Part shown: piece after piece, positions 54,529 to 55,123 of the stretch
How the letters are laid out: each line of letters begins with the position of its first letter
Position numbering within the stretch: the stretch's first letter is position 1
NCBI GenBank assembly: GCA_017442155.1
Contig: JAFSAU010000002.1
Location: 1 to 64,000 of the forward strand
DNA: 64,000 nucleotides
Direction of reading: 5' to 3'
From: Clostridia bacterium
GTDB lineage: Bacteria > Bacillota > Clostridia > UMGS1883 > UMGS1540
Notes under the pieces: model-generated
The model's database searches: none
Seen by the model: the letters and a program-made list of their open reading frames with translations, nothing else
What the model was told of the DNA's origin: nothing
Made by a program: the position numbers and the translations under genes

Positions 54529-54639
54529 TCATTATACGGGGGTTTATTTTTGTAGTAGTCAGTACCATTGATAAAACCGGCGGCTTCAACGCATAATTTC
54601 TCAAATTTTCAAAATTTTTCCATTTTTTTGAAAAAAGTA

Positions 54640-54668
54640 TTGCTTTTTTTTCCAATATATGGTATTAT
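54640..54668 (+). promoter_or_regulatory. Promoter of the structured RNA/abrB unit
   Basis: -35 TTGCTT (54640-54645), 17 bp, -10 TATTAT (54663-54668). The expected start falls at the first base of the structured element. Confidence 0.6.
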
Positions 54669-54671
54669 AGT

Positions 54672-54857
54672 GTTGTCACATTCACGTGGGCGTATTTTTA
54701 CGTCCTTTATACAAAGAAACAGTGTACGCTTAGGCAAAAGCGTACGCTCTGATTTCTTATACTGTTTCTTTGTAACAAATAAGTGAGTGTGACAACTTTC
54801 AATCAGAGATGCTACGTTTTTCGGTGTGTCTCTGCATTGCAAGGGACACACTTTTTT
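54672..54857 (+). ncRNA. Structured leader RNA or small RNA upstream of abrB
   Basis: A closing stem GTTGTCACATTCAC / GTGAGTGTGACAAC (54672-54685 / 54783-54796) encloses two hairpins. One is a short GGCGTA/TACG stem (about 54688-54705). The other is a long arm ACAAAGAAACAGT / ACTGTTTCTTTGT (54711-54723 / 54761-54773) continuing into GTACGCTT/AAGCGTAC (54724-54731 / 54738-54745). An intrinsic terminator GTGTGTC/GACACAC (54824-54851) with six Ts follows, 24 bp before the abrB start. Layout fits a regulatory leader or a free small RNA. No known riboswitch class was recognised. Confidence 0.6.
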
Positions 54858-54880
54858 ATTTACGGAAAGGAGCAAGAGGT

Positions 54881-55123
54881 ATGCAGGAATTGGGAATAAT
54901 TCGCAAAATGGAGGATAACGGTCGGGTGGTGATTCCCGCCGAAGTCCGGAGGGAGATGAAATGGGATCATTATACCCCGCTGGAGCTTTTTTACGACCGG
55001 GGCGGTGTTCTTCTGCGGACATACGAAAAGTCTTGTACTTTCTGCGACAGCAAGGACACCGTGCAGCTTTTTGAAAATAAACCCATTTGCCAAAGCTGTA
55101 TCGATCGCCTGAAAAAAATATAA
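54881..55123 (+). CDS. AbrB/SpoVT-family transcriptional regulator with zinc ribbon
   Basis: The 80-residue protein starts MQELGIIRKM (AAAGGAGCAAGAGGT upstream). The N-terminal SpoVT-AbrB swapped-hairpin domain shows NGRVVIPAEVRREMKW and LELFYDRGGVLLRTYE. A C-terminal ribbon with CTFCDSKD and CQSCIDRL adds a metal site. It is likely a transition-state type DNA-binding regulator, probably dimeric. Expression is likely affected by the terminator in the leader. Confidence 0.88.
   Translation: MQELGIIRKMEDNGRVVIPAEVRREMKWDHYTPLELFYDRGGVLLRTYEKSCTFCDSKDTVQLFENKPICQSCIDRLKKI

Follow-up and report, generated by a model that had tools for sequence, protein, structure and literature searches.

A structured leader at positions 54640-54880 of the window, by which we mean the whole 64,000-nucleotide stretch of the Clostridia bacterium contig JAFSAU010000002.1 analysed here, is probably (a chance of about 80 %) a cis-acting transcription attenuator of an undescribed RNA family. 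A preliminary description of the window, made from its letters alone, had seen the layout of a riboswitch or attenuator in this region, and this view is strengthened by three features of that functional kind, namely a structure supported by compensatory changes (29 of 36 base pairs), a conserved choice between terminator and antiterminator, which are mutually exclusive by prediction only, and a position that is mostly that of a sense 5' leader, 79 of the 112 matches being closely followed by a gene on the same strand (~70 %, by a simple gene call). If true, many uncultured Clostridia from gut and rumen have much of their cell-surface output under the control of a single RNA family, one for which the reference RNA library has no name. 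Hundreds of leaders now read as intergenic DNA would gain an annotation, and the family provides a defined regulon, a switch whose anatomy is clear and a direct way of searching for the signal.

Anatomy of the leader in the window

All features described here lie on the forward strand. The promoter (54640..54668) consists of the -35 element TTGCTT (54640-54645) and, after a spacer of 17 nt, an extended -10 element, TGG-TATTAT (TGGTATTAT, with the -10 at 54663-54668); the -35 element is weak, with three matches out of six, and hence the promoter is missing from the list of a simple promoter scan. The 14-bp closing stem P1 begins 4 nt past the -10, and its 5' strand GTTGTCACATTCAC (54672-54685), the predicted transcript start, forms an inverted repeat with the 3' strand GTGAGTGTGACAAC (54783-54796). 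Folding places a short hairpin, P2 (GGGCGTATTTTTACGTCC, 54688-54705), and a long two-part arm (54711-54773) inside this stem. P2 is lineage-specific, being shared with the close relatives C50, C34 and G001 C51 described below and not part of the family model, and outside P2 the architecture is conserved family-wide.

Four further strands were assigned from folds, from covariation (A' with B) and from a comparison of pairing energies described below. Strand A (54711..54731) can pair with strand C (54758..54773), the 3' strand of the long arm P3, or, via GTACGCTT, with strand A' (AAAAGCGTACGCTCTGATT, 54736..54754) in the hairpin P4. A' can instead pair with strand B (AATCAGAGATGCTACGTTTTTCGG, 54801..54824) as a long-range pseudoknot, in the window through CTCTGATT (54747-54754) and AATCAGAG (54801-54808). 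B is in turn a possible antiterminator partner of T, the 5' strand of the terminator, through CAGAGA (54804-54809) and TCTCTG (54829-54834). The intrinsic terminator, detected by a terminator scan (GGTGTGTCTCT...AGGGACACACTTTTTT with a U tract, 54823-54857), is followed by the ribosome binding site AAGGAG (54867-54872), directly ahead of the ATG of the presumed regulated gene (54881-55123), which encodes an AbrB/MazE-type DNA-binding protein of 80 residues (PF04014, E 1e-5) bearing a C-terminal CxxC...CxxC zinc ribbon. A protein-pattern scan of the genome contigs for the AbrB gene gave no match. The start of transcription at the closing stem, the hairpin and two-part arm enclosed by it, and the clean terminator followed by the abrB ribosome site had all been proposed in the preliminary description and were found as proposed; the pseudoknot and antiterminator pairings are additions to it.

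The predicted fold of the element (-86.8 kcal/mol) is far more stable than that of shuffled sequences (mean -51.5, sd 4.3; z -8.3), none of 200 being as good. An A/T-rich block, TTTTCAAAATTTTTCCATTTTTTTGAAAAAA, which lies 5' of the promoter (54600-54637) and is kept before the leaders of the AbrB paralogues, may serve as an UP element or in autoregulation by AbrB.

A family of structured leaders in Clostridia

Searched at the DNA level, the window's own genome (G000) shows the leader again before two AbrB paralogues, on C50 (84 % protein identity), where a remnant of the leader also lies in tandem ahead, and on C34 (59 %). The C34 copy carries CCTTGGTT/AACCAGGG in place of CTCTGATT/AATCAGAG, that is, compensated changes across the pseudoknot. 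The congeneric AbrB homologues G001 C53, G001 C51 and G002 C19 also carry the leader, the G001 proteins being 57-58 % identical to that of the window, so that three species of the genus have related leaders ahead of genes of the AbrB type; more ordinary AbrB genes of the same genomes (G000 C4, G001 C3 and G002 C2) are without it. Two further copies in the own genome are imperfect. One (L041, C25:4244-4421, minus strand), with promoter and closing structure present, is broken off before the terminator and adjoins a small HPr-like ORF and a gene whose product is LysM-like at its C-terminus; it appears to be a decayed or repurposed copy. The other (L070, C28:13369-13513) is degenerate, has no recognisable promoter and directly follows a mazG-like gene.

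The most conserved part of the element, the tail CGTTTTTCGGTG, led to remoter loci ahead of other genes. A gapped pattern recovered about 65 real members in 391 genomes of the class Clostridia, with few matches for a reversed control, and 37 pattern-derived members were aligned (alignment A2). The window reached 60.6 bits (E 1.4e-10) with a covariance model built from relatives (R1), in which the pseudoknot was not modelled; the E-values of R1 are rough, owing to short calibration, and the pattern search is independent of it. With at most seven matches scored per genome, R1 found the element in 99 of the 391 genomes and 57 of 223 genera. Eight genomes scored more fully contain 5-24 copies each, with 16 in the own genome and 14 in G013, which is 96 % complete. 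The named matches are metagenome-assembled genomes of Clostridia (Oscillospiraceae, Ruminococcaceae), most of them sampled from gut and rumen.

The preliminary description had suggested covariation analysis as a check and had allowed that homologues might show no compensatory mutations; on the contrary, such changes are extensive. In A2, the closing stem, the terminator and the A':B helix all came out of an unsupervised column scan. Amongst 111 distinct members (alignment A3, in which copies related by descent are counted separately), 95.6 % of cells are paired against 81.9 % after shuffling, the 29 pairs changed on both sides were equalled in none of 500 shuffles, and the covariation score is 0.479 against 0.220 when shuffled and at most 0.09 when slid. 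The closing stem, the pseudoknot and the terminator are each about 90-98 % paired in these members: P1 is 97.6 % paired, with eight of nine main pairs changed on both sides; the A':B helices are 90-99 % paired, with 9 of 14 pairs so changed; and the main terminator helix is 98.2 % paired. The A':B helix emerged although the alignment had been made without modelling it, and the frequent G-U pairs of the pseudoknot indicate that the constraint acts on RNA. Besides these helices, certain unpaired stretches, AAUA after P1, CAACAA and the UUUUUCGG loop, have the same sequence in most copies.

Of 111 members, 85 have a -10 element with at least five of six matches ahead of the stem, mostly 4-6 nt upstream, as compared to 24.7 % in shuffles. 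Most sense genes downstream lie within 50 nt and have a ribosome site, the median distance from terminator to start codon being 28 nt (83 copies with a called start), while about 15 copies, notably in G374, have no same-strand gene downstream, facing a convergent gene or none. By a crude hydropathy rule, 36 of 67 distinct downstream proteins look exported, as against 10 of 47 control ORFs. Pfam domains found in these proteins include BspA-type leucine-rich repeats repeatedly, as well as copper amine oxidase N-terminal, SLH, cohesin/dockerin, M23, NlpC/P60 with C-type lectin, PBP5 and LiaF. AbrB/MazE-type regulators are met in two distant families, recurring in that of G076 (L343, L353 and L356, two of the three just under the Pfam cut-off), and the leaders of these genes do not group with that of the window, so that the link between leader and AbrB/MazE either arose more than once or is old. 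A homology search for the element upstream of abrB-like genes, suggested as a check in the preliminary description, is answered by the paralogues, the congeneric homologues and G076. Most targets are other genes, and those of the AbrB type form one component of a broader target set.

No Rfam 15 family reached its gathering threshold anywhere in the window. Scans at permissive thresholds, run on the window element and on 11 member-bearing loci, gave only below-gathering, chance-level matches at the element, and none to the T-box, in agreement with the earlier remark that the fold matched no recognised class. The absence from Rfam may reflect the fact that the named carriers are metagenome-assembled Clostridia, largely of gut and rumen. 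A literature search, confined largely to the main texts of open papers, returned no description of the motif, and the family is apparently unnamed. A survey of structured RNA candidates from gut microbiomes lists 3161 candidates, many predicted with terminators (PMC8040213); it concerns the same kind of habitat and may already include the element. A different comparison is offered by large orphan RNAs of Clostridia. The raiA motif and others like it are structured and widespread, with their function open, and the element shares these properties, yet it has no Rfam match to any such family.

A proposed four-strand switch and its mechanism

Pairing energies of strands with their own partners were compared with those obtained with partners swapped in from other copies, using 66 members. 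All four pairings, A:A', A:C, A':B and B:T, are stronger with the own partner (p 1e-11 to 1e-37; A:C 1e-37, B:T 7e-20, A:A' 1e-11), while the control pairings C:B, A:T and C:T showed no difference between own and swapped partners in the same members. For the B:T helix alone column-wise covariation is weak, perhaps because T also pairs with T', and its support comes from this comparison. Read in this way, the sequences suggest two mutually exclusive sets of pairings, one made up of A:C, A':B and the terminator, the other of A:A' and the antiterminator B:T.

In the window, the antiterminator fold (-73.7 kcal/mol) lies 2.2 kcal/mol above the terminator fold (-75.9 kcal/mol), the antiterminator is the best nested fold when the chain has grown to 54834-54840, and the free CUCUGAUU:AAUCAGAG pairing has an energy of -8.5 kcal/mol. 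On these grounds we propose the pseudoknot as the OFF signal. RNA polymerase would start at the closing stem. A would pair with C in the OFF state, and A' with B across the closing stem; with B thus occupied, the terminator would form and a leader of ~165-190 nt would be released. In the ON state, A' would be held by A or simply be unengaged, B would capture the 5' strand of the terminator, and transcription would proceed past this antiterminator into the gene. We infer that a signal, which may be a ligand, an ion or a protein, shifts the balance between pseudoknot and antiterminator, and that expression would follow, the genes under control being those for many secreted or surface proteins and for small AbrB-type regulators. 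A leader-peptide attenuator is not supported by a conserved short ORF, since the codon in strand A' that looks like an AUG reads ACG in many members.

A similar contest between pseudoknot and antiterminator for one strand before an intrinsic terminator is known for transcription-terminating riboswitches with pseudoknotted aptamers (such as c-di-GMP-II, preQ1 and fluoride). The element differs from these in its consensus, in having its closing stem at the transcript start, in the four-strand A/A'/B/C exchange and in its lack of an Rfam match, and several of its carriers are without GGDEF. With the T-box and with attenuators governed by BglG/LicT, ANTAR or CsrA the element shares the choice between terminator and antiterminator in a leader; however, as detailed below, the proteins concerned are each missing from six or all of ten carriers, and the T-box gives no match.

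Candidate signals and alternative readings

Considering what the attenuator might sense, a tentative reading, to which we would give slightly less than an even chance, is that gut Clostridia have here a new class of orphan riboswitch. Such a class would read a small molecule or ion and set surface-protein secretion together with AbrB-type regulators, a surface regulon without c-di-GMP in around a quarter of the sampled Clostridia genomes. It is more doubtful that an RNA-binding antitermination or termination protein operates the switch in place of a small ligand, although the conserved unpaired stretches could be protein contacts and one protein would suit many co-regulated leaders. Of ten motif-rich genomes, none contains the BglG-type domain CAT_RBD or CsrA, and six, including G000 and G086, lack ANTAR; none of these usual proteins can therefore serve all carriers. 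No GGDEF match was found in the motif-positive genomes G007, G008, G010, G011, G012, G013, G018 and G043. Since these are drafts of varying completeness, such absences argue against a general role and not against every single case; as general signals, c-di-GMP, CsrA, BglG-type proteins and ANTAR are unsupported by the gene content of the carriers. In Clostridia, the c-di-GMP classes occur in many copies and have surface-protein targets, and the resemblance of the present targets and copy numbers to those regulons could point to a known class missed by the Rfam models. This is extremely unlikely given the lack of a match even at permissive thresholds and the lack of GGDEF in G013 and in G043 (97 % complete).

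Most copies have their own promoter and terminator and about 15 precede no sense gene, as would suit a mainly stand-alone, trans-acting small RNA with incidental read-through; this is improbable, however, considering the close sense genes with ribosome sites behind most matches, the preserved antiterminator alternative and the coherent set of target genes. The preliminary description had also raised inverted repeats at many unrelated sites as the mark of a mobile repeat. The many sites are literally real, with 16 copies in the own genome, and the copy numbers, tandem copies and occasional copies on viral contigs might suggest a mobile or selfish element, but the copies do not look recently mobile. 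Near-identical dispersed copies are not seen: median identity within a genome is 0.57-0.70 against 0.58 overall, a few pairs being closer, so that copies have diverged about as much within genomes as between them. With compensatory changes and with the orientation and spacing relative to start codons, this makes a mobile repeat very unlikely. It is hardly credible, finally, that the inverted repeats are DNA operators for AbrB. AbrB-type proteins do lie downstream in several cases, and TTTTTCCA (reverse complement TGGAAAAA) occurs upstream of the promoter; nevertheless the helices contain many G-U pairs and most targets are not AbrB genes.

Tandem pairs of elements, spaced ~200-330 nt and many with a -10 and a terminator per unit, were seen at L243, L261, L336, L344, L352, L356, L360, L361, L325, L230, L093 and L039. 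A first scan of viral sequences gave a single match (L074), a chance one inside a coding gene, and a broad scan gave mostly chance matches, apart from seven IMG/VR contigs classed as viral that carry real members by R1 (L120, L125, L126, L130, L157, L167 and L205). A partial match was also found in one faecal phage record (MT835845.1). Some of these precede small exported proteins; together they would be either prophage cargo or misassigned host DNA. Similar leaders in two genera (L235 in G320 C47 and L237 in G036 C60) precede SPFH/Band_7 plus zinc-ribbon genes, at some 270-380 nt from terminator to gene.
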